From a virus: 20,284 nucleotides of DNA. Positions 1 through 20,182 of the stretch are shown here, piece by piece; within the stretch, counting starts at the first letter, position 1; each line of letters begins with the position of its first letter. The stretch lies in IMG/VR virus record IMGVR_UViG_3300025131_000556, positions 1-20,284 of that record; one strand, written 5' to 3'. The position numbers were made by a program, and so were the translations under genes. The notes beneath the pieces were generated by a model, which worked only from the letters and a program-made list of their open reading frames with translations, was not told the origin of the DNA and ran no database searches.

Positions 1-1099
1 CATTCTGCAAAACTTCAGCCACGGTAATAGACTTAAACTTAGAAGAATCTAGTAAGTCAGGATCATTAAACTCTTTTATCGCACCGCCGGAATACCTACC
101 TGGATTTTTAGGGAGGGCTTTACCTATGCCGTGATTAATTTGCTTTTTCCCTGTAAGAAAACTAGCTCTTGCTGGGGAACACTGGGGGCAAGCATAGGAA
201 TTATCAAATAATACTCCTTGATTAACCATATCTGTTAGTACAGGAAGATGAGCATAAATATTTTTACCAGCAGCATCAATCGCCTCATTATAAGGATTAT
301 CTATTTCCGTAGAAGTAACATCAATTGCAGAATATCCATCCCCACTCAGCGGGCCCGTTGAATTATCTGGGTCCTGTGGGTATCGCCAATCTGCGGCCAT
401 TCCGTTCATGTGATGGCAAAAGGAAAATAGCTCTGGCCCAGCATCATCAAGGAGGACAAAAACGAAGTTGGGCGTATCTTCCAAAGACCTAAAACTAAAA
501 ATCCATTCAATTATTATCTCAAAATTACTTTCTTTCTTTATTGGGCTTACAAGCTCTTTGTATGCAGCCAAAATAGGTTTATCAAAATTGGCTATATTAT
601 CAACAGATGATGCTCCATCAGGATTTTTAATAAACATACCAAATTCTTGTAAGTCCTGGCCGTTCGCAGTATTTCTATCAATTACAATGCGGTGATATAC
701 CGAATCCTGCTCCCGTTTAGTTATCTGAGATGTTGGTAGGGTTGCTAGTGCATCAAATCTATTAGAAAGCTCTAAAGAAGAAACATACTCATCTACGGCC
801 ACTACTGCCCGAAGTTTTTCTATATCTAAATTACTATGCTTGCCGTAGTCCTCTTTTGTTAGGGGGGAAGCTAAAGTTAAAAATTTACTTCCGAATTGAG
901 TAGTGGGTTGAGAAGATTTCCCCCCCGTCCCAGCTTGAAAATAGCCTATCCTGTAGTTATCAACATGCTCAGAAGAAGAGGTAGTTAAGATATCTGTAAT
1001 AGTCTTACCAAACCCCACAGTAAGAATATTATTATCATCTAAAACAACCTCTTTATTTCCATCGGAATAAAGTTTAGTAATTATAATTCTTCCGTTCAT
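1..1099 (-). CDS. Tail adhesin-sulfatase fusion protein (3' end outside window)
   Basis: I translated this frame by hand from the ATG at 1099; it stays open for 366 codons to the window edge. Residues 1-205 look like a phage tail-fibre/adhesin domain: they begin NGRIIITKLYSDG and close with a strand FEIIIEWIFSF, matching the two ends of the upstream 572-residue protein. From about residue 209 the protein is a type I sulfatase (alkaline-phosphatase superfamily): PNFVFVLLDDAGPE (210-223) supplies the metal-binding aspartates, LPVLTDMVNQGVLFDNSYA (286-303 region) is the usual segment before the active site, and CSPARASFLTG (307-317) is the C-x-P-x-R signature whose cysteine becomes formylglycine. 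Such enzymes hydrolyse sulfate esters, often on polysaccharides; the substrate cannot be read here. The start is supported by an ATGA overlap with the preceding stop and GGAG 12 bases upstream. The later metal and substrate residues lie outside the window, so activity is inferred. Confidence 0.85.
   Translation of the reverse strand, partial: MNGRIIITKLYSDGNKEVVLDDNNILTVGFGKTITDILTTSSSEHVDNYRIGYFQAGTGGKSSQPTTQFGSKFLTLASPLTKEDYGKHSNLDIEKLRAVVAVDEYVSSLELSNRFDALATLPTSQITKREQDSVYHRIVIDRNTANGQDLQEFGMFIKNPDGASSVDNIANFDKPILAAYKELVSPIKKESNFEIIIEWIFSFRSLEDTPNFVFVLLDDAGPELFSFCHHMNGMAADWRYPQDPDNSTGPLSGDGYSAIDVTSTEIDNPYNEAIDAAGKNIYAHLPVLTDMVNQGVLFDNSYACPQCSPARASFLTGKKQINHGIGKALPKNPGRYSGGAIKEFNDPDLLDSSKFKSITVAEVLQN
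149..181 (-). other. Sulfatase formylglycine signature CSPARASFLTG
   Basis: Encodes residues 307-317. C307-S-P-A-R311 fits the C-x-P/A-x-R recognition core of formylglycine-generating enzymes and of the radical-SAM sulfatase maturases; the following LTG (residues 315-317) completes the family signature. C304, three residues earlier, does not fit the motif. The predicted catalytic cysteine codon is at 181-179. Confidence 0.88.
437..469 (-). other. Sulfatase metal-binding Asp-Asp motif
   Basis: Encodes residues 211-221, NFVFVLLDDAG. In type I sulfatases a hydrophobic beta strand ends in two aspartates (here D218 and D219) that bind the active-site calcium. This marks the start of the catalytic domain in the fusion protein. 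Confidence 0.8.
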
Positions 1100-2814
1100 A
1101 GTGTTTTAATTCTCCAAAGAATAGTTAAAGCAGAATAATTCCTTACCCCAGCGTCAGTGCCATCATCCTCAATATAGGTTAAATCTTTCGTAAAGTTCTT
1201 TTTAGCAAATAATTTATACTTTATAGGATTATTAGTCTTATTAAAAGTAAACGGCGCAGTATATCCACCAGCCTGAGTTTTCTCTAGATCTATTGACCAC
1301 AACCCAATATTGTATATACCTCCAAACGCATTTCCCAAAATTAAATCTCCAACAAAAGTGCCCGAACCAATTGAAGTATAATAAGTAATCACCCCAGTAT
1401 CAGAAACATTAGCTTCAGAGGAAGAAGAAAATCCTTTACAGGTATATCCCCCGTCCGCACTAGCAATGAAACCATATCTATCTACTTTCCCATAATAATT
1501 ATAAGACGAACTAGTGTCTGCACTAACTACCAAGTTAGCGGAAGGGTTATCAAGAAAATCAGCATCAAAACTAGATACATAATAACAAGAAATGTTAGAT
1601 GGGGATACATTAAACTTTGGGCCATAACACCCCAAAAATAGTGCCGGGAAATTACTCACACTTGTTTCAGCTTCATTTGACCATGCCGAAGCTGAAGCAC
1701 CGTACTCTAACTGAGCGTGACTCAAATATATATGTTTTTGGAGTAGTTGTGGGGCTAGATCATTATCATCCTTATCGTCAGGAATGGATATATATACGAT
1801 AAGTTTATTATCAAGAACCTCTTTCCCAGTAGAGAATGAAATAGTTGCTCTATACCAAGTACCCGTTGTTGTTAGTTCAGTATCAGCATATCCAGCAAGC
1901 TCAATATCAGTACCTGCCTCTTGAACTCTTAATCTAATAGAGGATAAATCATTTGACCCATCTCCATCTACCCGTCTACAATAAATACTGAAAGTAAATT
2001 TCTTCTCTGAAATATCTTCTGGAAATTCAACAATTTGTCTTATCCAAGAAGTAGTTCTTGAAAAATCAATTAGTGAGTCCGACTCCTTTGAATTCATTCT
2101 AGCCACTTGTACAGTACCAGGAAGACTACTTGGAGGGGCTAGTACTGAGGAAGGAACATTTACTACCTCAGTTAAATCGTTTTTTATATTCACCCCCCAA
2201 ATCCCAGGTTCAGCATAGTCTACATCAAAATCTAATCTATTAGGATAAGAAAGCCAGTTATAATTTCCAGATGCCCCAGACCCAACATTAAGTACCCCAG
2301 ATAAAGTATACCCGTTGTTAGATGTCCCGTATTGAGCAAAATTTAAATTCTGGCCGAACTCTAACCCCTGAATACCCAACTCCCTTTCTATAGCAGTCAA
2401 AGCTTTATCTACTAATTTAATATCTTCTGGTTTTGGCGCAACGCCCTTAAAATTTGGAGGAGTATAACTAGAAGTTGTTGCAGACGATACAGCAACCCTA
2501 ATAATACCATCTATTTCGGTTTGGGTAACTGCGGAGTCTATTCCTGTAACATCCCTATCTTCGGCCTTCTTCCAATAATGTGCGTTCTGTAAATAGGCTT
2601 CCCTAGGCTTTCCAAATGACAGAGCTTGAACAATATAGTTAGAAGTATCTAATAAGGCACTTGTGCTGGTAACTTCCGCCAAACTAGGAGAAACTGTCAT
2701 CAAATCAGCAAGTAATTCCGATGCCCCATCAACAACTAGATTCTCCCCCTCCTGGACTAATTCCTGGTTTGGTTTCCCATAATTTTTATAAACTTCTATT
2801 TTTCCTTTTAACAT
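1096..2814 (-). CDS. Putative tail adhesin/fibre protein with carbohydrate-binding-like module
   Basis: A 572-residue protein, not recognised as a named family. Its start (LKGKIEVYKNYG, then a hydrophobic stretch to about residue 67) and its end (YSALTILWRIKTL) resemble the N-terminal domain of the downstream sulfatase fusion, suggesting a common tail-attachment or adhesin fold. Residues about 262-378 form a beta-rich module with KFTFSIYCRR, a WYRATISF strand and the signature HAQLEYGASASAW. This layout is typical of carbohydrate-binding-like domains in phage tail proteins. The gene overlaps its neighbours at both ends (TAATG with the wedge gene at 2814, ATGA with the sulfatase gene at 1099), so the three are probably translated together. 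No Shine-Dalgarno precedes its start. Likely role: a distal baseplate or fibre component touching the host surface; this is inference from position and module content. Confidence 0.75.
   Translation of the reverse strand: MLKGKIEVYKNYGKPNQELVQEGENLVVDGASELLADLMTVSPSLAEVTSTSALLDTSNYIVQALSFGKPREAYLQNAHYWKKAEDRDVTGIDSAVTQTEIDGIIRVAVSSATTSSYTPPNFKGVAPKPEDIKLVDKALTAIERELGIQGLEFGQNLNFAQYGTSNNGYTLSGVLNVGSGASGNYNWLSYPNRLDFDVDYAEPGIWGVNIKNDLTEVVNVPSSVLAPPSSLPGTVQVARMNSKESDSLIDFSRTTSWIRQIVEFPEDISEKKFTFSIYCRRVDGDGSNDLSSIRLRVQEAGTDIELAGYADTELTTTGTWYRATISFSTGKEVLDNKLIVYISIPDDKDDNDLAPQLLQKHIYLSHAQLEYGASASAWSNEAETSVSNFPALFLGCYGPKFNVSPSNISCYYVSSFDADFLDNPSANLVVSADTSSSYNYYGKVDRYGFIASADGGYTCKGFSSSSEANVSDTGVITYYTSIGSGTFVGDLILGNAFGGIYNIGLWSIDLEKTQAGGYTAPFTFNKTNNPIKYKLFAKKNFTKDLTYIEDDGTDAGVRNYSALTILWRIKTL
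1112..1115 (-). promoter_or_regulatory. Ribosome binding site of the sulfatase fusion gene
   Basis: GGAG on the coding strand, 12 bases before the ATG at 1099, lies inside the end of the upstream gene. Together with the ATGA stop/start overlap (1099-1096) it supports ATG 1099 as the true start. The spacing is somewhat long. Confidence 0.45.
1681..2031 (-). repeat. Carbohydrate-binding-like module, copy in the 572-residue protein
   Basis: Encodes residues about 262-378 of the adhesin. The pattern is FTFSIYC, then an IRLRV strand, a WYRATISF strand, and closing HAQLEYGASASAW. It is related at protein level to the two modules in the wedge protein upstream, not as an exact DNA repeat. Confidence 0.55.
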
Positions 2815-5800
2815 TATAAATCATCAAAAACTAAACTAGAGACCTGGAAATTACTATTTTTACCTGGAGAATACCAATCTGGGTGGGCTCTATAATTCAA
2901 CCTACTTCCACCATCTAATCCATGAACTGAAGAAGTACCCGAATCAAACGGATCTACAACAAAGGTGCCACTAACTGTTGGACCATTAGTAGCCCATATA
3001 GATATGTCCCTAGCATAATCATCAGCATCAACACCAGACACCAGCAAATTAGTTCGGTAATTTGGTGTCCAAGGACTTAAGCCTCCCCGCTCTAGCTGTG
3101 CATAACCAACAAAAATATAATCATTCGTACTCCAGCCCATAGATTCCCAAAGCATACAAGATAAGGATAAAGAGCTTCCATCATACGGCGCAGCGGAAGT
3201 TGGTGTAAAGGTTATAGCCCCCCTAATCCAACCATCAATAGAAAATTCTTCATGGTCTGTTAACACTACTGTCGATATCTGGTGCAGACCAGCGCCCCAT
3301 CTTGCAAGCAACTTAATGTTTGCCAACTCCCCGTCCTCAGCTATAGCGCCCGACAACTGAAAGCCCTTCTTTAGATATATACTAAAAGTATAAGTTTCTC
3401 CTGAAACAGCGTGATCCAAAGTCACATCCAAACCAATGCCAGATGCGTCAACCAGCGAAACAGGCAGTAGTAACTTGTGTCCTTCCGAGGTTTTTTGTCT
3501 TGTTGCTCTACCTATATTATCTGCTGATGGAGTCAAGAAAGTTTTCGTAGCCTCTTCCCCAACAACTGCCATATTTATAGTCGTAATAGAATGCTCGTTA
3601 GTTTTAAAATTAGAAAGATCGTTAAAGTACCTTATTATAGGCAGTAATTCCTGCTTAGAAATAGGAATATTTCCATTAGCTACTGGAATATTAGTACGCT
3701 CATTTAAAGTTATATCTTTTAAAGATATTGAATCTACAATAAGATAACTGTCTTCCGCAGTAGGCAAGGTAAATATCTCAATATTATAATTTTGATCACC
3801 TCTATGGATCTGGTTGTGATTAATATAGTAAGAATCTTCTAATGCTAACGGCAGGTTTCTTGTAGAAAACTTAACTACATAGTCCCTAAACATAGAAGCA
3901 GTTATCCTTGAGAAGGCTGTATAAGAAAAATTATTATCCGTAATAATCCCCTCCTCATCAAAATCTATATCTCCCCCAAGAATACAGTGTTCTTCTTCTG
4001 TTACCTCGCCCTCACCAGAAAGAGTGGTAGTAAATACATAACTTTGCGCCGCTACAGCAGCGTACCCACTCCTACTATTTGTTGTGCTTGTATCTGCCTG
4101 CCTCCAATCATAATTAAATATATCATGACCCACAGCACTTGGAGAAGGATACCAATACTTACCCTCCTCATCATCAGTATGAATCCACACTCCAAACGGC
4201 ACAGGAGCTAAACGATCTTCACCATAAAGCCCTGCTGCCCGAACGGTCAGCTCATACTCATGTTCTGGAATTAACAAATTACTTACAGTCGGACCCACTT
4301 GCGCGGACGCAGCAATTGGTCCAACAAGCAAATCTCCACTTACGCTTGTGCCCGTCTGCTTTATCCACCTATTAAAGTCTGTGGCATCAAAACTATCGTT
4401 TGGTTTACTTGTATCCCCCAAAATATTAGAAGTGCTAGAATCTTCCCAACTAGGATTTAAAAAGTCCTCCTCAGACAACCTAGCCTGAGCAAGATAATAA
4501 TAATCGTCATTCTCCCAAGTATTTAAAGTTACTGGGTCAAACTCATCCGAAGGGAATGCTTGAACAAGAATCCCTATACCTCCGTCATAATTGCCGCCCG
4601 CAGCAAATCTTGTTGAAAAAGTATGAGTTATTGAGGCTCGTAAATATTCCGAATCATATTTATGTTCCCAGAAAAACTCTTTTGCTGTATAGGGTACTGA
4701 AGTATCTTCCCCAGAAACAAAATAAGTGCCATCAAAAATTTTATCAGTACCACTAGTCTCAAATAATGCTACTCTAATTCCCGGTGTATACTTACCTGAA
4801 TACTTACCTACTTTTGCGTATACTGAAAAAGTAAGCGTTTGACCAGAAACACTACCGCCGGGGGGAATTACCATTAGAGCTACCCCCCCATTATTATTAT
4901 CCTGGTAAATTATTTTGTCGCCGCTTACACTATATTGTTCCTCATGATATCCTTTATTTTTTAAATCAAACTTAATTCTAGTTGATCCTGCCTTATCAGA
5001 AGCTAGTTTTATAAGAGTATTATTAATTAAAAAGTTCTCTGATCCTGCTTTAGCGTATTCTGGGGCAACCTTAATAATAGAGAAGTAGTTCTTTTCGGGG
5101 CTTACTCCTGAAGTATAAATTAAATCTACACCATCTATGATATTATCATTTCTAAACTCGTAATCATTTACATAAAGGTTTGTTGAATCGCTGGCAACAT
5201 AAGTACCCATTTGCATGCCACTAGAATCATTAGTAAATACATTTCCAGAGGCCCCCGTTAGTTTACTAACAACCTCAATATTATCAGCTACGCTAGAAGC
5301 AGTAGGATCTTTTTGTTCAACCCCAGTAACAAGATCACCTACTATTGTTTTGGGTTTATCTATAACCTTACCTAATTTTTCAAAGTTAGCATTATAAACT
5401 AAGGGTCCATAAGTATGAGAAAAAATATTAGGAACAGATGCTTGATTTTCTAATAAATGTTTATTAAGTTCATGCTTATTAAAATACTTAGCATAATCAT
5501 GGTATAGTTTATGAATCCCTCGACCAAACTTAAAGTCTTCATAAACATCATAAGAACTAACAGAACTTCCCAAAACATTAGCATAAGAAGTAATAAAATC
5601 TACATCAGACACATCAAAAGTAACTTCTCCCCTTGTTTCCTGTTGGTTTTGGTAATATGCTGAAGCCTCCAAAAGTTGCTTTTTTTCTAAAAGCTTGTGC
5701 ATCTCTACAATGATCTCTGGGGTTTCTCCTCTTGTAGTAAACTCATGACAACCACTAAAGGTAAAATCTCTAATATTATCCTGAGTATCCCCTCCCCTAC

Positions 5801-8174
5801 AAGGGAAAGTATTACTCACATCAATATCAAAATAAGTAGAGGAGGATCCTAAATTTTCGCACGGGTCATATACTGGGTGCAAATTATGGACATCTGAAGC
5901 CTCTTGGAATCTTGCAGCAGAGGGTGTATATCCCAGGGGGATCCACCCAATATTTGAGGCATCAGAGATAGACTTCTCCAACGCAGAAGGAGATAGTAAC
6001 GGGGGCATATTATCCCCACCTCTATAATACGCTCCATTATGAGGGAGTAAGTGCTTATAATTTCTCCTTCTAATAGAGGCTCTAGGAGCAGAAATTACAG
6101 AGGTTGTACTTATTTGATAATCATCAATATTATCAGCCTCGGTTCTAACAAATGTGTGGCCAGTACTATCAGAACCGGATATAGCATAGTTTCTTCCTAC
6201 ATCCCCCGAACCAACAAATACCTCATCACTATAATATGCAAGGTTTGGACAGGCGATTTCAAATGTACCTAAAGAATCAACAACAGTTGATACTGTTAAT
6301 GATATATTAGGGATGGCGTGTGCTGGAACCACTTGATCAATTGCGTGGGCCACCTCCCTAATAGCTAATCCAGAATCTTTAGTTATGATATCAAGTTTTT
6401 CAAAATCAAAAGAAGAAGTATAGAAAGGTAATGCAAAGTGGGAGGATTTCCCATTCCACAAACTTAGATATTCAATTTTTTGCTCTGAGGGGTTACTTAG
6501 TAACTCAGCATAATTAGGGGCCTGCTCCAAACCAGAGGTAAAGAATAGCCAAGCATTATCAATATAAAGAATAGATTCATTCTCTTCTAATTCTCTTCTA
6601 GAAACATACTTATTAATATAATCAATTAATGCTTCTCTTAATGGTTTTCTTACACCAAAACAAAGTAGAAGTGCTTTTAGTCGTTCTAATAATGCAGTAG
6701 AAACCCCGGTATGTTCGTAGTACCTCTCTTCTTCCCAAGGAGGCATTGGAAAGTTTCTACCTCTATAGTAAAAGATAAATTTTTCATGCTCATTAAAAAA
6801 CTTATCACCAAGCTTAAAATGATCTGGGAATTTCTGAGTTAAATCGTAAATTATAGTATCTACAGCGTAGCGTAGATTTAAATCCATGTCCTCATAACTA
6901 TAATTTTGAACTCCTAGTGTCCTGGAAATCTCAGGGGTCCAACTTCTAAATCTATTTTTGAATAAAATAGAGTCTGTGGCTAAAGCATAATAAATTAAGT
7001 TTGGAATATAAGATTCATATAATTCATATAAATTATCACCGCTTACAGCAACAGTATCTGAACCGAAAACAAGGTTCACTAAAGTTTGAATAGATTCCTT
7101 TGTTCCTTTTCGCTTATATATGGATACTATGTGTCTAAGTTGGGTTCTCCATCTCCTAGTATCATTACCTAAAAGCTTCCACCCAATCAAATCTGCCATA
7201 TAAGGAAGTAGCTCCTCTGGGCATCGTTCTATATCATATAAGAACTTTATTAAATCCGCTTCTGCTGTGTTATCCGCAAGCCCATAACTTATAGCTCGCA
7301 AAAACTTATGCATCGGCCCCACAGGAATTTTGCCCTCTTCTAAAAGTCCCGCATCCTCATAAGATTCAAAGGCATCCCTTACAAAAGTATCTTTAATATT
7401 AAACCTATCAGAAGAATAAATAATACCAACTAAGGTTTTCAGCTTTTCTAGGTTCTGTGTTCCACTAGTCCAAGTCCCTACCCCAGAAGTATACGAATCT
7501 ACAACTAACTTAGAATCCACCCCAGGATAGAAATTATTTCTCCACAAATATTCTTGAAAACACTTAACTCCATCAGTGATAGTTATGTGATCACCATCAT
7601 AAAGAGTGCCTAAAACATCAATAATGGTAGAAGAGGGCGCATAACCATTTCCTCCACCCTCAGCATAAGGTCCAGTATTAAGAAACCAAAACCAAGACAG
7701 TGAGTTAGTCAAGTAGCTTCTTGTAGCTGATAAAGAGTTTCCAAAAACACTACTTGTGTCAGTATGAAGTGTTGTTGAAGAAGCAGCTAAAGTAGGAAGT
7801 AGGGTTCCACTCAAATAACTTATAAAAGCATCTTTTGTTTTATACTTAGAATATGCAGTTTTTAGTGGGGCTAAAATCTCTATTTCAAAATCATAAGGAG
7901 TAATATCAGTTCTATTAGCAGCAACATTAAAATAAGGAGCTATTCCAGATAAGCTATTAACCTCTGTGTTACCCAACAAGTCCGAGATATTTTCTGCTGC
8001 TATAATATGTGAATTAATTAAATCATTATATACATCCTCCCCCAGACCGCTTAGATTTATATCTTCCTGTAAATAATTTCCTGGGACTATACTTTCAACG
8101 ACATCACTATAGTTTCGTTTAAAGTATATTTGGGGCTTCCCACCAAAATCACTAGGATGAGATATATTAGACAT
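2814..8174 (-). CDS. Giant baseplate wedge protein (gpI/gp7-like) with C-terminal adhesin modules
   Basis: A 1786-residue protein. Residues about 285-370 match the P2 tail protein I/T4 gp7-type wedge segment: a helical stretch with DLIKFLYDIERCPEELLPYM, then IGWKLLGN, and SIYKRKGTKESIQTLVNLVFG at 351-371. This family joins baseplate protein J/gp6 to the tail fibres, and the gene sits directly after a J/gp6 gene, as in many myoviruses. P2 gpI is only about 175 residues and T4 gp7 about 1030, so this version is greatly extended. Residues about 1110-1243 and 1591-1708 are beta-rich modules of carbohydrate-binding type; the latter ends YAQLERGGLSPWTPNYRTN. The middle (about 450-1000) is unrecognised. 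The start overlaps the J stop by eight bases and has no clear Shine-Dalgarno, implying coupled translation. The wedge assignment is good; the adhesin role of the C-terminal part is inferred. Confidence 0.8.
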   Translation of the reverse strand: MSNISHPSDFGGKPQIYFKRNYSDVVESIVPGNYLQEDINLSGLGEDVYNDLINSHIIAAENISDLLGNTEVNSLSGIAPYFNVAANRTDITPYDFEIEILAPLKTAYSKYKTKDAFISYLSGTLLPTLAASSTTLHTDTSSVFGNSLSATRSYLTNSLSWFWFLNTGPYAEGGGNGYAPSSTIIDVLGTLYDGDHITITDGVKCFQEYLWRNNFYPGVDSKLVVDSYTSGVGTWTSGTQNLEKLKTLVGIIYSSDRFNIKDTFVRDAFESYEDAGLLEEGKIPVGPMHKFLRAISYGLADNTAEADLIKFLYDIERCPEELLPYMADLIGWKLLGNDTRRWRTQLRHIVSIYKRKGTKESIQTLVNLVFGSDTVAVSGDNLYELYESYIPNLIYYALATDSILFKNRFRSWTPEISRTLGVQNYSYEDMDLNLRYAVDTIIYDLTQKFPDHFKLGDKFFNEHEKFIFYYRGRNFPMPPWEEERYYEHTGVSTALLERLKALLLCFGVRKPLREALIDYINKYVSRRELEENESILYIDNAWLFFTSGLEQAPNYAELLSNPSEQKIEYLSLWNGKSSHFALPFYTSSFDFEKLDIITKDSGLAIREVAHAIDQVVPAHAIPNISLTVSTVVDSLGTFEIACPNLAYYSDEVFVGSGDVGRNYAISGSDSTGHTFVRTEADNIDDYQISTTSVISAPRASIRRRNYKHLLPHNGAYYRGGDNMPPLLSPSALEKSISDASNIGWIPLGYTPSAARFQEASDVHNLHPVYDPCENLGSSSTYFDIDVSNTFPCRGGDTQDNIRDFTFSGCHEFTTRGETPEIIVEMHKLLEKKQLLEASAYYQNQQETRGEVTFDVSDVDFITSYANVLGSSVSSYDVYEDFKFGRGIHKLYHDYAKYFNKHELNKHLLENQASVPNIFSHTYGPLVYNANFEKLGKVIDKPKTIVGDLVTGVEQKDPTASSVADNIEVVSKLTGASGNVFTNDSSGMQMGTYVASDSTNLYVNDYEFRNDNIIDGVDLIYTSGVSPEKNYFSIIKVAPEYAKAGSENFLINNTLIKLASDKAGSTRIKFDLKNKGYHEEQYSVSGDKIIYQDNNNGGVALMVIPPGGSVSGQTLTFSVYAKVGKYSGKYTPGIRVALFETSGTDKIFDGTYFVSGEDTSVPYTAKEFFWEHKYDSEYLRASITHTFSTRFAAGGNYDGGIGILVQAFPSDEFDPVTLNTWENDDYYYLAQARLSEEDFLNPSWEDSSTSNILGDTSKPNDSFDATDFNRWIKQTGTSVSGDLLVGPIAASAQVGPTVSNLLIPEHEYELTVRAAGLYGEDRLAPVPFGVWIHTDDEEGKYWYPSPSAVGHDIFNYDWRQADTSTTNSRSGYAAVAAQSYVFTTTLSGEGEVTEEEHCILGGDIDFDEEGIITDNNFSYTAFSRITASMFRDYVVKFSTRNLPLALEDSYYINHNQIHRGDQNYNIEIFTLPTAEDSYLIVDSISLKDITLNERTNIPVANGNIPISKQELLPIIRYFNDLSNFKTNEHSITTINMAVVGEEATKTFLTPSADNIGRATRQKTSEGHKLLLPVSLVDASGIGLDVTLDHAVSGETYTFSIYLKKGFQLSGAIAEDGELANIKLLARWGAGLHQISTVVLTDHEEFSIDGWIRGAITFTPTSAAPYDGSSLSLSCMLWESMGWSTNDYIFVGYAQLERGGLSPWTPNYRTNLLVSGVDADDYARDISIWATNGPTVSGTFVVDPFDSGTSSVHGLDGGSRLNYRAHPDWYSPGKNSNFQVSSLVFDDL
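3051..3404 (-). repeat. Carbohydrate-binding-like module, second copy in the wedge protein
   Basis: Encodes residues 1591-1708: SGETYTFSIYLKKG, an IKLLARW strand, WIRGAITFTP, and YAQLERGGLSPWTPNYRTN. The AQLE-x-G-x(n)-W ending is the common closing signature of such modules in phage tail proteins. Confidence 0.55.
4446..4847 (-). repeat. Carbohydrate-binding-like module, first copy in the wedge protein
   Basis: Encodes residues about 1110-1243: SGQTLTFSVYAKVG, then IRVALFE, YLRASITHTF, and LAQARLSEEDFLNPSW. It is more diverged than the other two copies; the same strand order and closing motif can be followed. Confidence 0.45.
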
Positions 8175-9756
8175 ATTCTATATTTACAGTAGCATTATTT
8201 AGTTGGATAATCTCATTAAAGTCCGTTGTAATATCGTCCTCTATATTATCCACAGTTGAATATCTTACCTCTTTCAAAGAGGAGAATATCTCTCTATTTA
8301 ACTCTCCTAAAACTAGGGTTTTTCCAAAATCCATATTGTTTACATCAAAGAAAGATTTAACAATCCTCATAATTTTTTGTTTAATTACTTCTTCAATTGC
8401 GCGAAGCTCTTTATCAACTCTAGATGTGATTACTAAATCTACAGTCCTTATTACTCCATCTACAATTACAATATCATCAGTAACCATTCTTAATGGATCA
8501 ATATCATCTAAAAGTTCTTTTTTGTATGTGGGAGAAGCTTTTTGTAGTTGTAGGTCTGATGCTTTCTCTAAGGTATAGATATCAATAACATTCCCCGAAC
8601 TGTAAGCCTTTCTAGTAGCAGCTAAAGCCTTACCAGTCTTTCCAGTAGTACTAACAAACCTATTACAAAAAGAAGTATAATCTTCTAATGTTACTAGCCT
8701 ATTTATCTGCTTAAATGCTAATGGTCCGTATTTTTTAGCGTGTTCTAGGGTTTCTGCGTCTGCGCCGCCCGTAGCCATAGAAATGTTTTCTACTATACCG
8801 CTATCAGGACCAATAGTAATAGGAACATTTATAACCTCACTTTTAATATTCCCCCTAGTTCCTCCGCCCACTCGATAATTCACAAAATACTTAGCCCCTG
8901 TTGGGGGCGAGTTCGCCGCTACCCCATCCCCAAATACGATAGTAGCCCCATGAGTATCATCGTACACTATTTGATATTTATTTGTTCCAGAAGTGCTATC
9001 AAAATATAAATTCTCTACATAATCCCAAGAGCCGACAATAGACTCATCTAAAGAAGAAACATAAACATTAACACTACCCTCAATTACAGGACTTTTGTTA
9101 AGAGAAATTCGTTGCACAGTATCTAAGGAAGTAAACTCTCCTTCTTCTGTAATAAAAGCTCCCTCTAACAGAGCCAAATTAGTGTATACACTACTCAACA
9201 TATTATCAGATTCTGCAACATTTAAAGTAATTCCACTATCCTTCTCCATAGGATCTAGTGTTCCATTATTATCAACTTTATACAAGGTATAATTTACGGG
9301 GGTTCCGTCCTCTGGAGAAGTAATACTAAATACTCTTTTACCCGCTGGGATAGTAATATTTGATGCGTCATAAGAAGGTACACCATCAAAAGTTAGCTTG
9401 GCTGTTGCTGCCGCTGCTGCGGGGCCCAACATTCTAATCCCAATAAGCTCTAATAACTTCTTAACACTTGTACGCTTCTTTGCTGTTTTTAAATAATTCT
9501 CATTGGCAAGCATATCGGATTTTAAGGAAACTACTGCGCCCATATAGGCAACCAGCTCAATCAGCATTACACCTAAATCAGACTCTTGAAAATTATTGTA
9601 GTCTAGCGGATATACTGCCTTAATATAATTTATTAAGCTATCTCTAAGATCTAAGAAATCTGATCCCGCAAAATTAATAAACTCCTCTTTTTTACTATCA
9701 GGAATACTAAAAACTTTCAGGAAATCAGACTTAACTTCTCCAGTAAAACCAGTCAT
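8167..9756 (-). CDS. Baseplate wedge protein, J/gp6 family
   Basis: A 529-residue protein of the baseplate J-like/T4 gp6 family, which forms the inner ring of the baseplate and holds the wedges around the hub. Residues 56-112 show the usual N-terminal feature FQESDLGVMLIELVAYMG followed by a helical arm and LLELIGIRMLGP. The central domain has FGDG (275-278) and a glycine-rich strand. The diagnostic segment MATGGADAETLEHAKKYGP (327-345) is followed by RLVTLEDYTSFC (353-364), equivalent to the family's TGG-x-DAE and RAVT-x-x-DY motifs. The start overlaps the gp25 stop as ATGA, and GAGG lies about ten bases upstream. Order gp25, then J, then gpI is the conserved order of P2-like and T4-like baseplate clusters. 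Length is intermediate between P2 gpJ (about 300) and T4 gp6 (about 660). Confidence 0.92.
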   Translation of the reverse strand: MTGFTGEVKSDFLKVFSIPDSKKEEFINFAGSDFLDLRDSLINYIKAVYPLDYNNFQESDLGVMLIELVAYMGAVVSLKSDMLANENYLKTAKKRTSVKKLLELIGIRMLGPAAAAATAKLTFDGVPSYDASNITIPAGKRVFSITSPEDGTPVNYTLYKVDNNGTLDPMEKDSGITLNVAESDNMLSSVYTNLALLEGAFITEEGEFTSLDTVQRISLNKSPVIEGSVNVYVSSLDESIVGSWDYVENLYFDSTSGTNKYQIVYDDTHGATIVFGDGVAANSPPTGAKYFVNYRVGGGTRGNIKSEVINVPITIGPDSGIVENISMATGGADAETLEHAKKYGPLAFKQINRLVTLEDYTSFCNRFVSTTGKTGKALAATRKAYSSGNVIDIYTLEKASDLQLQKASPTYKKELLDDIDPLRMVTDDIVIVDGVIRTVDLVITSRVDKELRAIEEVIKQKIMRIVKSFFDVNNMDFGKTLVLGELNREIFSSLKEVRYSTVDNIEDDITTDFNEIIQLNNATVNIEYV

Positions 9757-10211
9757 GCTATTTTAACCTCAACATCAAAAATAAGATCTTCATACTCTTT
9801 TAGGGAAGCGATTAAGACTATTTTTAGTGCTTGTAATCCCTCGGCCCCATAATCATCTAACGGAAAAACACTAAGCTTGTTTAGTGTTACTTGGGGAGCA
9901 TAATTAGAAACAGCACTAATAATCTCCTCTTTAATCTCCCTAAAGAGAAAAGAGTCCATTGGTTGGAATAAAAATCTCTTTAAGTTTGCACCATAGTTGG
10001 GCAGCATAATTCGCTCGCCGCGCTCAGTAGCTAATAATTGGTGTAAGTTCTTTTTGGCTAGTTCAATTCCCGACTGTTTAGCAAAATAACCCCCCTCAGT
10101 CTGTTTGCCTATAGGGAAAGCTAAACCATATCTCTTGGCCCAACCTTTTCTCTCTACATCAAACCTTTCTGGTTTTTCTGATAAAACTCCGTAAATAGAT
10201 ACTTCACTCAT
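9753..10211 (-). CDS. Baseplate wedge protein gp25/gpW family
   Basis: A 152-residue protein matching the gp25-like/gpW baseplate family. The core is at residues 44-82: FAKQSGIELAKKNLHQLLAT, then ERGERIMLPNYGANLKRFLF, corresponding to the family's GERxxxPxFG-x(n)-LF segment. The C-terminal half has helices and strands ending in a beta hairpin (LQALKIVLIASLK, then a final strand ending VEVKIA). The protein locks the sheath to the wedge and nucleates sheath assembly; despite old names it is not an active lysozyme. An extension of about 40 residues precedes the core. It begins at a TAATG overlap with the preceding gene, has no recognisable Shine-Dalgarno, and ends in an ATGA overlap with the J gene, indicating tight translational coupling. 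Confidence 0.93.
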   Translation of the reverse strand: MSEVSIYGVLSEKPERFDVERKGWAKRYGLAFPIGKQTEGGYFAKQSGIELAKKNLHQLLATERGERIMLPNYGANLKRFLFQPMDSFLFREIKEEIISAVSNYAPQVTLNKLSVFPLDDYGAEGLQALKIVLIASLKEYEDLIFDVEVKIA

Positions 10212-13045
10212 TATGTTTGAATATTTTTAAAGAATATTGATTGTGCATCAAAATTCTTTTTAGCCTCCTCTATAGTTAGGGCTTTTCCGTAAATTTTAAA
10301 ACTTCCTAGGTGCCCCTCCAAGCCACTTCTTGTGCCTTGATTAGTTCCCATAAAACCACCATCATATCGCATACCGTCAGTATACCCACTTCCTAAAATC
10401 CAAGGAGTAAAATAAGAAGTTAGTTTTGGTCCATGCTGTAAAGGAGACACCCTACCCATGTTTGAAGAGTTGTAATTAAAACTATTTTCCTTCACAAAAG
10501 TTGGTAAGGATGGGGGAGTAAAGGCCCCATTTCCAAATGTTTGGGGTATAGATGAGGTTGTTAACAACTCTCCATCACATGCTATCCGTACTTCATTCTT
10601 TGGAACATCAACAGAAACATTAATATGCACAAAATTAGAAGAAGTATCAGCTAAACTAGCCCCATTAACTGTTTTCTGTATATCAACTGCACATTTATAA
10701 AATCCTGGATCAGCAGCACAATTAACTATATCAGTTGTGTTATTAATAAAAACCACATCGCAAGTGTTTACAGATTGAGTAGGAGCAATATAGAAATTAA
10801 TTCCGTTGTCTGGGTGATTATCGGCAATATCAGTACTTGAATTTAATCCAGATACTATGGACCTGTCAGTAGTAAATCCCATAACAAAACCCTTTGTAAC
10901 ATCTGATCTATCAGAATATGGCATTCTTTCTGGGTTTGTTACTTCATAATCCCCTCCAGTGTTTTCACATCCTAAAATAATCTTGTGAAATTGTGGGGTT
11001 CCAGTAAAATCCCAGCCCGCAACAGTACTAGCAGAACCTATTTCGGGTACATGGGTCCAAAAATCAAAAGAGAACCCCGTATCTGCATAAGTTAAATCAT
11101 TAATTTCTTTAATATCGGGTAATTTTACATAGCTTCCTACCGAAGAGAACGAAGAAGTTGTAGAATCATACCCTCCGCCACCAATTCCCCTTAGATACGG
11201 TATCCCCAGCCCAGAAACAATAGTACTTTCTGAAGACTCCCCTACTAATTGAGCATTTCCGTATAAATTATCCGTAGCACAGTTCAATACTTGATATGTT
11301 GGTGACCCAGGATTACTTAAAACATTGGATTCTAAGAAATTATAAACAAATAATAGGTCTTCAGAAGTAATATGGTCATTTAGGCTCAATATTTGGGTTC
11401 CGTCAGACACCTCTGTAGTGCTTGAATCTAAAGTAACGATCCCTCCCCGCCCAATCTTAGGGACTAGTAAATAATCGAAGGTATTCGCCTCATTTACCTC
11501 CTTAGGAACCACAAATTTAGGTACATGGGGCAGCACTACCCCAGACACCTCTCCAGCAACGAAGGATATTTTTTGCTGTTTTCCTAAAGAAACAGGTAAA
11601 TTTAACTCCTGAAGATAACCAAAATCATTTATTGGAATTTCCCCAGGAGCGTATAAAGTTTCGTCGGCAAAAACCCTAGGAGCAACTACAGCAACCTCAA
11701 TCTGTTTCTTTCTTCTATTTATTTTACTTTGATATAGGGCAATATTTGAATATAAACTTTGCCTTTTATTAACCACAATAGCGGAGTGCGTACCCTCCTC
11801 ATCAATAAGATCAGTTAGCTCCCCAGATAAATCATAAATGTGCTTATTCTTTTGTTGAATTATAGTTTGTAAAAAATGATCCTTATCATAATAGGGTATC
11901 AAAGTATTAGAATCACCAATTTGATTAGGATCAAATATCGTATCTATAAATCTATCTAAAATACTCTTGGAAATTGCAGTTCCTTTACCACCTAAATTAG
12001 GATCATACTCAAACAACCACTCTAAACCCTCATCTGGGATAGCGAGGGGGTGTTCAGCGGAAACACTAATACCTCTAGAATTTAGTAAATAATCATAATA
12101 CAACCCATCAACACTAAGAATAAATTGTCCTTTTTTAGATTTGGGGGGTCCGTAAACCAAATCAAAAATTTTGTTATTTTCGTCTGGGTAAACTACCTCC
12201 CAAATACCCCCAGACCTTTCACAAGCTTCCCTAGTGGGGAAATTCTCACCCAAAGAACAACGACCTTCGCTACCCTCTAAAAGAAGAAATCCTGATGCTC
12301 TCAAAAACGATTTAATCTCCTCTTTTATTTCCTCATTAAACAGCACTGAATTATCAATAGCATCTAAATCTAATACTGGTTCTGGGGCTAAACCCTGCTC
12401 ACGATCAGATAGGGTTTTTCCAATAACGCTTAATGCAGCATTAGCCTGCTCTATAAAAGCCATAGCGCCAGCTACTGCGGCCTTCTTGTCCGCATAATTA
12501 TTAAGAACTTCTTGAGCCGTTGTAGGTAAATCATTTGGGTCAAAATCTATCCCAGCCTTTAAATCAGAACTATTTCCTCCAGCAAATTTTTGTTGCCCCA
12601 ACCACGAATCAAAACAATCTTTCATCTGATCAATCTGATCACCGATTGATTGAATATTAGCCCAAACAGCAGACCCAAAAGCAAACGCCCCAACCAACCC
12701 CTTTAATCCAGCTAAAAAAGTAGACTCATCTTTATCTAATCCATTTCTAGACGCAGAAGAGATAAATTTTAACTTTCCTGTAACAGTATCAAACTCAATT
12801 ATCCCACTATCTAAAAATATAGCTTTAATGGCATCAGCAACTGCTTGATCAGCAGCAGCTTTAGCATCAGAAATAACATCACTCATTCCCCCAAGAATAC
12901 TTGAAGGTAATATTGCTGCGAGGGCACCAGTAGCTAATCCCATAACGCAGTTTGGGATACCAAACCCCATTTGGAGAGAATCCATAATTCCTCCGCCGCC
13001 CTCACCTAAAACTGCTGCCGCTTTTTCTAAATCAAACTTTGCCAT
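10211..13045 (-). CDS. Baseplate-cluster protein of unknown role with LamG-like C-terminal half
   Basis: A 944-residue protein I cannot assign to a named family. The N-terminus has a hydrophobic, glycine/alanine-rich stretch (about 27-75) including GLATGALAAILPSSILGG, and another hydrophobic helix near 110-130; neither looks like a signal peptide. Residues 263-282 hold a small cysteine motif, C263 to C275 then GGIW. The C-terminal about 300 residues look like a concanavalin/LamG-type jelly roll: FSFDFWTHVPE near 658-668, then strands around HKIILGC, NFVHINVSVD and VRIACDGELL, closing with GHLGSFKIYGKALTIEEAKKNF. That ending is characteristic of LamG-like domains, which often bind sugars. It sits between the spike and gp25 genes, where many phages have only small genes. 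A structural, possibly ligand-binding, baseplate component is the best guess. The start is one base after the spike stop. Confidence 0.7.
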   Translation of the reverse strand: MAKFDLEKAAAVLGEGGGGIMDSLQMGFGIPNCVMGLATGALAAILPSSILGGMSDVISDAKAAADQAVADAIKAIFLDSGIIEFDTVTGKLKFISSASRNGLDKDESTFLAGLKGLVGAFAFGSAVWANIQSIGDQIDQMKDCFDSWLGQQKFAGGNSSDLKAGIDFDPNDLPTTAQEVLNNYADKKAAVAGAMAFIEQANAALSVIGKTLSDREQGLAPEPVLDLDAIDNSVLFNEEIKEEIKSFLRASGFLLLEGSEGRCSLGENFPTREACERSGGIWEVVYPDENNKIFDLVYGPPKSKKGQFILSVDGLYYDYLLNSRGISVSAEHPLAIPDEGLEWLFEYDPNLGGKGTAISKSILDRFIDTIFDPNQIGDSNTLIPYYDKDHFLQTIIQQKNKHIYDLSGELTDLIDEEGTHSAIVVNKRQSLYSNIALYQSKINRRKKQIEVAVVAPRVFADETLYAPGEIPINDFGYLQELNLPVSLGKQQKISFVAGEVSGVVLPHVPKFVVPKEVNEANTFDYLLVPKIGRGGIVTLDSSTTEVSDGTQILSLNDHITSEDLLFVYNFLESNVLSNPGSPTYQVLNCATDNLYGNAQLVGESSESTIVSGLGIPYLRGIGGGGYDSTTSSFSSVGSYVKLPDIKEINDLTYADTGFSFDFWTHVPEIGSASTVAGWDFTGTPQFHKIILGCENTGGDYEVTNPERMPYSDRSDVTKGFVMGFTTDRSIVSGLNSSTDIADNHPDNGINFYIAPTQSVNTCDVVFINNTTDIVNCAADPGFYKCAVDIQKTVNGASLADTSSNFVHINVSVDVPKNEVRIACDGELLTTSSIPQTFGNGAFTPPSLPTFVKENSFNYNSSNMGRVSPLQHGPKLTSYFTPWILGSGYTDGMRYDGGFMGTNQGTRSGLEGHLGSFKIYGKALTIEEAKKNFDAQSIFFKNIQT
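12200..12259 (-). other. Small two-cysteine motif (C-x11-C-x4-GG-x-W)
   Basis: Encodes residues 263-282 of the 944-residue protein: CSLGENFPTREACERSGGIW. This resembles short cysteine motifs of the C...F/Y-T...C...GG-x-W type that I recall from phage structural proteins. Function unknown; it may be a small disulfide or metal-stabilised loop. Confidence 0.5.
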
Positions 13046-13046
13046 A

Positions 13047-14126
13047 TTAGTTTAAATCAATCCTTGTTCCATCTATGTCAACATTCCCTTCTGCCGTAGC
13101 TAGAATATTTCCCCCAGCATCTATATCTACATCAGAAGTATCACTAGCTATAGTAAGTTTATTCCTAGATGTTAATTGCATAGTTCCCTCTGAACGAACT
13201 CTAATATTACTACCTTCCCCCTCAGAGGTAACATTAATAGTCCCTTCGTCCCCGTGAGAGGTAATATTAATGTTACCGTCTGGGGCTCGTACATCTATAT
13301 TTACATCATTATATTGACTGTAAATATTAATATTCCCCCAAGCGTCACCAGACTTTAGCTGTTCTAATGCCTGTAGATGGGGGCCCCCAGCATTATTTGT
13401 TCCCCCAATACGAACCTCGTCTGGATTTTTATGTGATCCAGTAGAGGTATTAGCAATGTTAATCTCTTTTCCATCTACAACCCTAAGATCAATAGACCCC
13501 TCATGACTAGTAGTTCTGGCAGGCCCCAAACACTCTGCTTCAATCATTCTTGCAGCTTCTCCGCGCCCCTTATGTCCTTTTGTAGAAATTTTAATATAAT
13601 CCCCATGCTCATTTCTTAAAATAATAGAGTCTATATGATCACTATCATTTAGAGTTAATATTTTTCCTCTGGGGGATCTTAGTCTAAGCTGAATATTTTC
13701 AAAGTCCTTATTTCTAGAATCGGATAATGTAATCTTATTTCCTAATGGAGACTTCCACACATATCTATCAGGAACCCCTGCGGCCTTAAACATTAGTGCG
13801 TCTGGAAATATATGTCCCTTTCTAGGGGCATCAAGATTATCTGCGGTTGGTCCGTCTTCAAAACCCCCCTCAGAAAGAGCAGCAATCTTAGGCACCCTCC
13901 AAATTGTATTTAAGTAAAACCACTCTGAAGAGTTTGTTGGCTGAACAATTAATACTTCATCGTGTTCTTCTGGCATAGCAACAATTCCGTGCGTAGGAGA
14001 GCCTCCATACGGAGAAGTATAGTTTACAGGGATACTTTCATACGGAGAACCCACATCTGCAGTGGTTACATAAAAAACCCCCCTAATATCTGGGGGCATA
14101 GCAACTGTTCCTGTTAGTATTTTCAT
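13047..14126 (-). CDS. Baseplate spike protein (gp5/gpV/VgrG-like) with beta-helix tip
   Basis: A 359-residue protein. The first about 80 residues look like the OB-fold found at the base of membrane-piercing spikes, with HGIVAMPEEHDEVLIV (46-61) followed by EWFYLNTIWR. The middle (about 120-185) has short beta repeats such as KSPLGNKITLSDS and RSPRGKILTLNDS, common in the spikes of contractile tails. From about residue 259 the sequence is a near-perfect alternating polar/hydrophobic beta-helix: INIYSQYNDVNIDV, INITSHGDEGTINVTSEG, MQLTSRNKLTIAS, DVDIDAGGN, NVDIDGTRIDLN. These proteins trimerise on the hub and puncture the cell envelope. Unlike T4 gp5 there is no lysozyme domain between the OB-fold and the helix, and I see no obvious His-x-His metal-binding tip motif at the C-terminus, which simply ends IDLN. 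Its start has AGGA eleven bases upstream. Confidence 0.88.
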   Translation of the reverse strand: MKILTGTVAMPPDIRGVFYVTTADVGSPYESIPVNYTSPYGGSPTHGIVAMPEEHDEVLIVQPTNSSEWFYLNTIWRVPKIAALSEGGFEDGPTADNLDAPRKGHIFPDALMFKAAGVPDRYVWKSPLGNKITLSDSRNKDFENIQLRLRSPRGKILTLNDSDHIDSIILRNEHGDYIKISTKGHKGRGEAARMIEAECLGPARTTSHEGSIDLRVVDGKEINIANTSTGSHKNPDEVRIGGTNNAGGPHLQALEQLKSGDAWGNINIYSQYNDVNIDVRAPDGNINITSHGDEGTINVTSEGEGSNIRVRSEGTMQLTSRNKLTIASDTSDVDIDAGGNILATAEGNVDIDGTRIDLN

Positions 14127-17129: not shown

Positions 17130-18125
17130 TCAAAATAAGTTCTTGAAGCCCAAGAGGCCGGTGGCCAAGTTGCCCGCAGCAACAGAGGCTTTGGTGGTCG
17201 CATCCTTGATACTCTCCAAATCCATAGTATTAAAATCATGTGGGTCTAAAGTATAAGGGGCTTCTAGTACAGACTCCCACCCAGGTAAATTGTCCCTAGA
17301 AGCCTCTGCGTTAGTGAATCTAGGCGTATAATCTCCGAAATTATCCCCACGAACCTCCTGTAACTTTAAAGAAATTTTAAGAATTCTAGGTAATAAGGTA
17401 ACATTATCATAGCCGCCCCTTTCAACGGCTTCAATGGAATAATCTGAACAAATACAAGGTATATGCTGATAAAGTATTCCGTGAGTTAATCTAATAATGG
17501 GTGGCCCCAAAGAGGGGTTTTTTGAATTATTGATAACACTCGATCTTAGTATATTAATCCAAAAAGTTATAATATCAACCGTGCTAGAGAAAGATTTTCT
17601 ATTCTCAGCAGAGGGTAGTTTTTTATACTTATCAGCCAAAGTTTCTTCGGACCCTGGGCTACTTTTAATAAATGCATCAATATCATCAGAAAGTGCCCGA
17701 ACATAGACTCGCCTGTTATCACTATAATTACCAACCATTGAAAAATTTGCTGTGGTAATATTAGATTTAAACCTAGCTTTTTCACTCTCTTTATTAGCAG
17801 AAGACTTTAAAGCAAACTGCTCCCAACTAAGTTGATAACTTCTTAGATGATCTAATGTTAAATTAAAAGACAATGATAAATCCCTGGCCTTCGCCCCAGT
17901 ATAAGCAAATAAGGAGCTAGATCTGCCTAAAGGGTTATAAGTACTATAATTTGCTTTTTTACTTTCTTTAATAGAAATATTCTCATAAAAAGGCAAATAC
18001 ACCGTGTCCGTCTTATTAGCCCCCGTTGGTTGAGGAAACTCAAACTTTAGGTATGATCTTTCCTGTAATTTTCTAGGCAGAACTGCGTTTGGGAGTTGTG
18101 GCGCAGGATCATAGTGCAAGCCCAT
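17130..18125 (-). CDS. Baseplate tail-tube junction protein (CIS tube/gp48-gp54-like)
   Basis: A 331-residue protein. The pattern YLPFYENISIKESKKANYS, then GRSSSLFAYTGAKARDLSLSF (67-87), and later GPPIIRLTHGILYQHIPCIC (207-226) with DYSIEAV and LPRILKISLKLQEV strands resembles the contractile-injection-system tube protein domain (Afp7-like), related to T4 gp48/gp54. Such proteins form the first tube-like ring on the hub from which the tail tube polymerises. Position supports this: just after the tape measure and just before the LysM-like gp53. The stretch 100-205 is an insert of mixed helices, and the last 40 residues are alanine-rich. The start overlaps the tape-measure stop as TAATG and has a strong GGAGGG six bases upstream. 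Confidence 0.75.
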   Translation of the reverse strand: MGLHYDPAPQLPNAVLPRKLQERSYLKFEFPQPTGANKTDTVYLPFYENISIKESKKANYSTYNPLGRSSSLFAYTGAKARDLSLSFNLTLDHLRSYQLSWEQFALKSSANKESEKARFKSNITTANFSMVGNYSDNRRVYVRALSDDIDAFIKSSPGSEETLADKYKKLPSAENRKSFSSTVDIITFWINILRSSVINNSKNPSLGPPIIRLTHGILYQHIPCICSDYSIEAVERGGYDNVTLLPRILKISLKLQEVRGDNFGDYTPRFTNAEASRDNLPGWESVLEAPYTLDPHDFNTMDLESIKDATTKASVAAGNLATGLLGFKNLF

Positions 18126-20182
18126 TATTTACCCTCCACCCTTTTAGCTGGCCCCGAATCTGGCCTCTCTGTGTTAATAACAATTTGTGCCAGAGCTGTG
18201 TTTAAATCACCTAACGCCGCTAATTGGCCTGCCGCATGTTCATTACCTTCCATAGCTAACGCTTTGTTAGCATCATTTAGTCCTAATGCACTCATCATAG
18301 ATTTATTTAAACTCCTTCTTGTTTCTTCTAAATATTTATTTGTGTTTACAGCCGCAGCTAAAGCTTCCTTATCCTTTCTTTGCTCCTCTTTCTCTGTTCC
18401 ATCAGCGACAGTTTTGATGTCATCCCCCATCTCTTCTAATACCTTTAAGAATTCGGAAGCTAGGTCACCCCCCAACCAATCAGGAAGAAACGACCACAGC
18501 TTGACAATCGACAGCGCCAAAAATTTAAAACCATCCCACAATTTCTGTATCCCAATACCAACAGTCGTGGCTACCGAATTTAACCCCGCTATCACGGGCT
18601 TCAGCAAGGTGCTAACTTTCCCCCACATTTTAACTCCCACCCGAAAAATAGCTATTCCAAAAGCCTTTATTCCCGTCCAAATATCTTTAAATATTGTAGT
18701 GTGTTTAGATAAAAAAGCAACCACTCCAATTACGGTGGCGACAATAGCTGTTATCGGACCCCCCAAAGCAGCTAATATTTTTCCAATAAACGGAATCTTA
18801 GTAGCAAATTTGAATATCCCCCCTAAAAACTTACTAATAGGCGATAATACAACCTTAAGAGTAGTTAGTAATTTTGAAGACCTCCCAACCTTCGCAGCAA
18901 CAGCGAGCTTCGGGCCATAGCCAGGAACCCCTGCGCCAAATGCAGATGGAGTCTTACTAATCTTCATCTTCGAGAATGCTTTGAGCTTCGCAGCGTGGTC
19001 GGAGGAGAGCTTCGTACCAGGGAGTTTTGGACCAAACTGGGGAAGCTTACCCGTCCTTTCGGGCAACTTCCAATTCTTACTCAAAGACTTCATCTTCGTG
19101 TTGGCCCACATAGCGGTTGTTAGGACTGCAAGGGCTATTGAAGTAGCTTGAAGTGCCTTCTTATTTTTTATTAACCAGTCAATTAAAGAGGGCAACTTTT
19201 CCACTACTAACTTATTGAGAGGGTCTAAAAATTCCCTATGAAATGCTTCAAGACTTTGATTAAACTTAGTTGTTATCACCTGTTCTTTTGTAAGACCTAT
19301 ACTGAGACCCCTTTGTATTTCAGTGGCTGCCATGGTAGTACTACCAAAAATCTCTAGCTGCTTTCCTTGGGCATACATCTTATCCCCAATTCCAGCTAAA
19401 CTAGCAGCTAATCTTTTATCTTCTTTTGCTGCGGACTCAACAGCAACCCTTAGAGATTCCGTTGTTATCTCCCCGGATAAAAAAGCATCTCTAACCGGAA
19501 GTAGTCCCGTCCTAGCAAGTTTAGTGTACCCAGCCGTAGTAGAATCAGTAAGCCCCTTAACAAATTCATTAAGTTGCGGACCAAAAGCCTCGCCCATCTG
19601 AGCGGTCAGGCCAGCAACTGCCTCCGTCATTTCTGGGGCAATACCCGCTCTTGCGTAAATGCGTAAATTATCACCAAAGTCGCTTATTGCTCCCACCATA
19701 GCATCAGCCTTAACACCAAACTTTTCTGAAAACTCTAATATTTTTGTAGATAATTCGCTGCGGCTAGATTGATCCATTTGCCCCATAGATAATAATTTAG
19801 CTTGCACACCTATCATTTTCTTACTATTTTGATTAGTAAGATTCATAGCCACACCTAACTTAACTGTACCCTTTGAGAAATTCTTTATACCTGCTGCATT
19901 AGCCTCAAGTCCAACCCCTAAAGCAGTATGGATCCCCCCAGGTAGATTATTTAATGCTTCAGAATTTTTTTTGGAAAACTCTCTTATGCTAACCCCAACA
20001 CCAAGGGATCTCTGCTGTAACTCACTAGTTTGCTTAATACTAGAAGTTAGTTCGGATATTACCCCCTGTAAAGTTAGAGTTTTAATTCCAAAGCTGGCGG
20101 CACCTTTATTAAGATTCCCAATAGTAGTATTAAGGAGATTAATACTACCTGATAAGTTTTCTTTTGATTTATCTTCAGCCAT
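18125..20182 (-). CDS. Tail tape-measure protein
   Basis: A 685-residue protein that sets tail length and is ejected through the tube. Residues 1-330 are almost wholly helical, Ser/Thr/Ala/Lys-rich and of low complexity. Hydrophobic helices lie at about 344-361 (ALQATSIALAVLTTAMWA) and about 466-492 (including ITAIVATVIGVVAFLS), with amphipathic helices at 500-570, as is usual for tape measures that interact with the host inner membrane. The C-terminal about 100 residues are charged and helical. Using the usual 0.15 nm per residue, the length would fit a tail of roughly 100 nm (estimate). Residues about 364-436 are a Lys/Pro/Gly-rich linker encoded by DNA of clearly higher GC than its surroundings. 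The start has AGGA seven bases upstream. Tape-measure identity comes from composition, hydrophobic segments and position, not from a sequence motif. Confidence 0.85.
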   Translation of the reverse strand: MAEDKSKENLSGSINLLNTTIGNLNKGAASFGIKTLTLQGVISELTSSIKQTSELQQRSLGVGVSIREFSKKNSEALNNLPGGIHTALGVGLEANAAGIKNFSKGTVKLGVAMNLTNQNSKKMIGVQAKLLSMGQMDQSSRSELSTKILEFSEKFGVKADAMVGAISDFGDNLRIYARAGIAPEMTEAVAGLTAQMGEAFGPQLNEFVKGLTDSTTAGYTKLARTGLLPVRDAFLSGEITTESLRVAVESAAKEDKRLAASLAGIGDKMYAQGKQLEIFGSTTMAATEIQRGLSIGLTKEQVITTKFNQSLEAFHREFLDPLNKLVVEKLPSLIDWLIKNKKALQATSIALAVLTTAMWANTKMKSLSKNWKLPERTGKLPQFGPKLPGTKLSSDHAAKLKAFSKMKISKTPSAFGAGVPGYGPKLAVAAKVGRSSKLLTTLKVVLSPISKFLGGIFKFATKIPFIGKILAALGGPITAIVATVIGVVAFLSKHTTIFKDIWTGIKAFGIAIFRVGVKMWGKVSTLLKPVIAGLNSVATTVGIGIQKLWDGFKFLALSIVKLWSFLPDWLGGDLASEFLKVLEEMGDDIKTVADGTEKEEQRKDKEALAAAVNTNKYLEETRRSLNKSMMSALGLNDANKALAMEGNEHAAGQLAALGDLNTALAQIVINTERPDSGPAKRVEGK
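18132..18137 (-). promoter_or_regulatory. Strong ribosome binding site of the tube-junction gene
   Basis: GGAGGG on the coding strand, six bases before the ATG at 18125, embedded in the last codons of the tape-measure gene. It is the best Shine-Dalgarno sequence in the window and fixes the start codon. Confidence 0.75.
18875..19093 (-). other. GC-rich, Lys-AAG-rich island within the tape-measure gene
   Basis: Encodes residues about 364-436, a basic linker with GPKLPG, TKLSS and YGPKL units. By hand count, 18901-19080 is about 53% GC, against about 32% at 19141-19200. The plus-strand octamer GAGCTTCG occurs at 18905, 18983 and 19007, and CATCTTCG at 18965 and 19091. Lysine is mostly AAG here. 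The reading frame is intact throughout. Confidence 0.6.

Follow-up and report, generated by a model that had tools for sequence, protein, structure and literature searches.

A sulfatase domain fused to a tail anchor module as a candidate virion enzyme of T4-like myoviruses

Virion-associated enzymes that modify glycans are an established class, which includes deacetylases that do not cut the sugar chain (PMC5380687). In tailspike depolymerases and deacetylases, the glycan-modifying enzyme sits on the tail behind an N-terminal attachment module, and the deacetylases act by altering a substituent (PMC5380687). Words beginning with 'sulfat' are absent from that 2017 review of virion-associated carbohydrate enzymes. 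In S1 sulfatases, the cysteine of a CxPxR motif is matured by FGE or anSME, and calcium is bound by DD and DN motifs (PMC8746622). The locus described here points to a virion enzyme that removes sulfate, within the known class of virion glycan enzymes. Its layout would resemble that of the tailspike enzymes, while its chemistry (a sulfate ester), its fold and its need for a maturase differ. We found no earlier description of a virion sulfatase in the open-access literature, where one may still exist elsewhere; the publications consulted that pair sulfatases with phages concerned host genes, FGE-like folds in the targets of diversity-generating retroelements, or annotations unrelated to virions.

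We analysed the complete IMG/VR record IMGVR_UViG_3300025131_000556 (20,284 bases, hereafter the window), whose end cuts the gene of interest. This gene (2..1099, minus strand) is a single open frame of 366 codons that starts with ATG and is open at the position-1 edge. The original prediction was that one frame links an N-terminal tail module to the start of a type I sulfatase, and the reading frame, the Pfam match and the homology of the anchor module all bear this out. The search against PF00884 that it had proposed gave a match to the Sulfatase family at residues 283-337, with E=2.3e-7 and 30.9 bits against a curated cut-off of 25. Querying the PDB with the fusion protein (phmmer) returned an N-acetylgalactosamine-6-sulfate sulfatase as the best match (E=3.4e-5), in an alignment that also covers the DD block. 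This block reads VFVLLDDAG from residue 213 and contains the Asp218-Asp219 pair (443..448, minus strand), the calcium-binding DD of S1 sulfatases, kept in 15/15 viral relatives. The CxPxR motif lies within CSPARASFLTG (residues 307-317; 149..181, minus strand; bases checked), where Cys307 is the would-be formylglycine. Both the DD at 218-219 and the complete signature are thus where they had been predicted. Judged by these matches and by its place in a clade of viral sulfatases, the segment from about residue 210 (the start is approximate) to residue 366 (2..472, minus strand) is the beginning of a true S1 (PF00884) sulfatase domain, of which the window holds the first third only.

The remaining motifs can be followed in relatives, which we found by scanning viral contigs for the sulfatase signature and then with a profile (L numbers designate loci in these contigs). 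The six S1 motifs (DD, CxPxR, GKWH, a later His, DN/DNG and a Lys before (S/T)xY) are complete in 15/15 viral domains examined; in the window sulfatase, the last four would fall past the record edge. Four longer relatives score 84-104 bits against PF00884, and a profile built from the viral domains retrieved solved sulfatases with E down to 1.7e-25. Carrageenan and other glycan sulfatases are among the closest solved relatives of this profile, and a phosphonate monoester hydrolase is also among its PDB matches. The viral domains share DD and CxPxR with other S1 enzymes but differ from them in forming a separate clade, in their C-terminal position within tail proteins and in a longer insert between these motifs. 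This insert spans 63-69 residues in the viral relatives, 89 in the window sulfatase and a median of 39 in 74 other sulfatases. With 26-42% identity to the other viral domains, the sulfatase of the window is a divergent one. In two relatives (L077:6329-10396 and L079:6344-10513), the sulfatase domain is enlarged by an extra insertion of about 300-370 residues, placed after GKWH and before the conserved block that follows. Full-length AlphaFold prediction of a complete relative (L065, nine aligned sequences) gave a pLDDT of 30.7, and we set this model aside.

The N-terminal part of the fusion protein has relatives that mostly occur on their own. Residues 1-203 are 30% identical (E=5e-29) to a 271-aa protein in the same gene place of the syntenic contig L006, where a second, paralogous anchor of 205 aa adjoins it. 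A profile of these three anchors found 39 loci in viral contigs, the majority of them stand-alone proteins of about 185-270 aa. AlphaFold run on 59 aligned anchors produced a confident, beta-rich model (pLDDT 85.8, pTM 0.86), for which Foldseek found related predicted viral folds, including tail fibre and baseplate proteins. Matches of the model to solved structures were weak, none reaching E <= 0.001, yet they were of a fitting type, with the phi812 arm segment, the HFTV1 tail and A511 gp105. No anchor relative was found in GenBank phage records. Because of the homology to tail-region anchors and the resemblance of the predicted fold to tail proteins, we read residues 1-204 (488..1099, minus strand) as a putative virion attachment module, a slot-1 anchor in the anchor tree. 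The N-terminal domain had first been called adhesin-like; its tail-type character stands, but it belongs to a paralogous family of mostly stand-alone anchors, and we rename it a virion anchor module. In four of the 39 loci (L015:6001-9030, L039, L040 and L044), the slot-1 anchor is fused to an unrelated, conserved C-terminal domain of about 800 residues that matched nothing by sequence in Pfam, NCBIfam or the PDB; this domain is possibly another virion enzyme.

The other genes of the window on the same strand form a tail/baseplate set that includes several unnamed tail-region proteins. Next to the fusion gene lies ORF2 (1096..2814), a tail protein; in relatives, its homologue stands before the slot-1 anchor. 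Against L006:12063-14240, ORF2 shows 37% identity in its C-terminal and 32% in its N-terminal part. It is followed on the map by a Tail_P2_I-type protein of 1786 aa (2814..8174; PF09684, 21.9 bits, over the cut-off), a baseplate wedge gp6/J-like protein that served as backbone marker (8167..9756; phrog_219, E=3.4e-35) and a gp25-like baseplate wedge protein (9753..10211; PF04965, 43.6 bits). Further along are a LamG-like baseplate-region protein (10211..13045; weak LamG match), which is 37-44% identical to proteins of L069-L076 and L078 and is without a sulfatase here, a spike-like protein (13047..14126; weak DUF2345 match, below the cut-off) and a tape-measure-like protein (18125..20182; phrog_8125, E=1.8e-4), all on the minus strand.

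The viral sulfatases occur in two architectures. In nine lineage A contigs (L063-L068, L077, L079 and L080), an anchor fused to a sulfatase occupies the same slot as in the window, and where the contig is long enough the gene order is Tail_P2_I, ORF2, anchor-sulfatase fusion, anchor-only protein and large fibre. Six of these fusions are complete, measuring 1,051-1,062 aa in L063, L065, L066 and L067, 1,355 aa in L077 and 1,389 aa in L079; in L064, L068 and L080 the contig ends before the fusion is complete. In nine lineage B contigs (L069-L076 and L078), the sulfatase forms the C-terminus of a LamG-like protein homologous to that at 10211-13045 in the window, and the slot-1 anchor is absent from the two lineage B contigs that could be followed far enough (L165 and L166). 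Lineage C (L006, L010, L014, L029 and L032) carries a sulfatase on neither scaffold. Anchor-only tail proteins, for example in L006, L010, L014 and L032, stand in the same slot after ORF2, with about 31-36% identity over 200 residues, and unlike the window fusion they carry no catalytic domain. Several loci represent the same contig (L054=L063, L051=L064, L058=L068, and the B contigs of L049-L062 recur as L069-L078). Each of the 10/10 sulfatase-bearing genomes checked has one anchor- or LamG-fused sulfatase protein, which in L057/L078 is split over two frames. In that contig (L078:4214-9537), the LamG-sulfatase gene lies in two overlapping frames, and a short tract is duplicated. The gene is intact in L074, which is closely similar; the break in L078 is either an assembly error or real variation.

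We then compared trees of the backbone, the anchor and the enzyme. The tree of the backbone marker gp6/J resolves lineages A and B as clades, each with 100/100 support, and puts the window with lineage C (91/90), outside both. In the anchor tree the window has the slot-1 type but again lies outside lineage A. In the sulfatase tree, the viral domains, that of the window among them, group together as one clade (98/94) apart from the 53 other sulfatases included; the alignment has only 64 columns and the window branch is long, so that the exact place of the window within the clade is poorly determined. With the window left out, lineages A and B are set apart from bacterial sulfatases at 100/99, and their domains are only about 32-38% identical to each other. 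Together, the three trees argue for one viral sulfatase family on two scaffolds in three backbone lineages. Its history is either one old fusion followed by losses or a series of later moves. Since the same domain occurs on two different scaffolds of the tail, phages may be able to move an enzyme from one place in the virion to another.

The baseplate markers gp6 and gp25 relate the window to T4-like myoviruses. The window has no terminase gene, and a gp17-type terminase (Terminase_6N) is present in five related contigs; for the one compared with phage records, the best named matches are gp17 proteins of T4-like phages, and its identity to these and to the terminase of a 595-kb uncultured phage is just 32-36%. 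This phage (LR756511.1) is the best public relative of both the window gp6/J and the terminase of the related contig, hinting at a possible link with huge phages. A search of 50,697 phage records for the fusion gave only a weak sulfatase match and nothing closely related. The cyanophage marker psbA was not found in the related, partial viral contigs. Several IMG sample numbers of these contigs are, we presume, those of ocean viromes.

The fused domains, the slot in the tail operon, the conserved architecture and motifs, and the single sulfatase per virus on either scaffold are read directly from the sequence. From them we consider it probable that these T4-like myoviruses carry a virion-borne sulfatase that acts on a host surface glycan at adsorption. 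The protein would be a structural component of the tail or baseplate, with a virion anchor at the N-terminus and an S1 sulfatase of the formylglycine type at the C-terminus. It would be translated in the host cytoplasm, and an FGE or anaerobic maturase of the host would turn Cys307 into formylglycine; the anchor would mount the protein in the distal tail. On contact, the virion may split sulfate esters off the surface or capsule glycan of the host. This would unmask or alter the receptor layer, so that other fibres could bind and the tail could get to the cell. Some bacteria are known to make sulfated extracellular polymers, such as synechan in Synechocystis (PMC8205485) and those of marine Pontiella (PMC7356697), which makes a bacterial target plausible.

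Whether the enzyme would turn over its substrate depends on its maturation. No FGE (PF03781) was found in 18 partial viral contigs, and the sole radical-SAM match lies in a contig without a sulfatase, for which reason we rejected that protein as a maturase. Either the host therefore supplies the maturase, or the domain only binds; this is the chief weak point of the catalytic reading. The latter would make the tail sulfatase fold a receptor domain for a sulfated glycan, with an unmatured cysteine and no turnover. We regard this as unlikely, since a pure binder would be expected to lose some catalytic motifs, while the viral domains kept all of them despite the low identity between lineages; moreover, these contigs are incomplete, and a maturase may be encoded by the host. 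An active enzyme might instead desulfate algal or particle-bound matrix polysaccharide and ease the movement of the virus to its host. Algae are rich in sulfated polysaccharides (PMC9096561), and the glycan sulfatases among the closest solved relatives fit such a substrate. The gene, however, sits among baseplate and fibre genes, and we give this non-host target the same low probability as pure binding; a sulfated glycan of the host would be the most economical choice. Hydrolysis of another ester, phosphate or phosphonate, as by some PF00884 enzymes, is less probable still. An S1 sulfatase with additional aryl phosphate activity is known (PMC8746622), and the phosphonate monoester hydrolase match points the same way, but the best profile matches are sulfatases, and CxPxR, GKWH and DN together make up the sulfatase set.

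Two further readings both appear very improbable, to about the same degree. One is that the virus captured a host sulfatase as an auxiliary metabolic gene that frees sulfate for the infected cell, as the free-standing sulfatases of other viral contigs (L048, L182 and L183) might suggest. In every case in this virus group, however, the sulfatase forms one reading frame with a tail protein, in both architectures and inside the tail operon, and the viral domains form their own clade apart from bacterial genes. The fused tail-type module, the tail operon and the recurrence of the slot with complete motifs therefore favour a part of the virion over an auxiliary metabolic gene, in line with the original prediction, which had argued for a virion role from the location in a tail cluster. 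The other is an artefact or decay, in which the contig end is chimeric or the gene breaks off shortly past the edge. The record end does cut the gene, no other viral contig overlaps it (scans with the fusion protein and with the first 24 bases), and the relative in L078 is frame-broken. Against this, the identical architecture and slot recur in nine other contigs, and the frame remains open and collinear with sulfatases up to the edge.

A virion sulfatase acting on the host surface thus remains our preferred reading. The virion enzymes known so far act on host sugars by cutting or deacetylating them, and the removal of sulfate would widen the chemistry that phages bring to bear on surface glycans. 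If true, it implies hosts with sulfated coats, and a protective effect of surface glycan sulfation in bacteria against phage becomes open to direct testing. Infection would be tied to host FGE or anSME, because the catalytic residue is made post-translationally. More tentatively, and with some doubt, we propose that this would be the first known virion sulfatase and a transplantable module, present as one copy per virus on either of two unrelated scaffolds in separate backbone lineages, and that host formylglycine maturation would be required for infection since the viral sulfatase depends on it.

Other sulfatases were seen in viral sequences. Phages with a P22-type portal carry free-standing sulfatases near head and packaging genes (L181:11173-13218, 681 aa; L192:10280-11866, 528 aa), which are a case separate from the tail-fused family. 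Free-standing sulfatases of about 465-490 aa, unlike the tail-fused family, occur at L048:8978-10375, L060, L182, L183, L189 and L194. In the 174-kb records of Campylobacter phages A11a (MG065691.1:83112-84434) and A18a (MG065686.1:89689-91011), an unannotated stretch shares about 28% identity with the free-standing L048 sulfatase.
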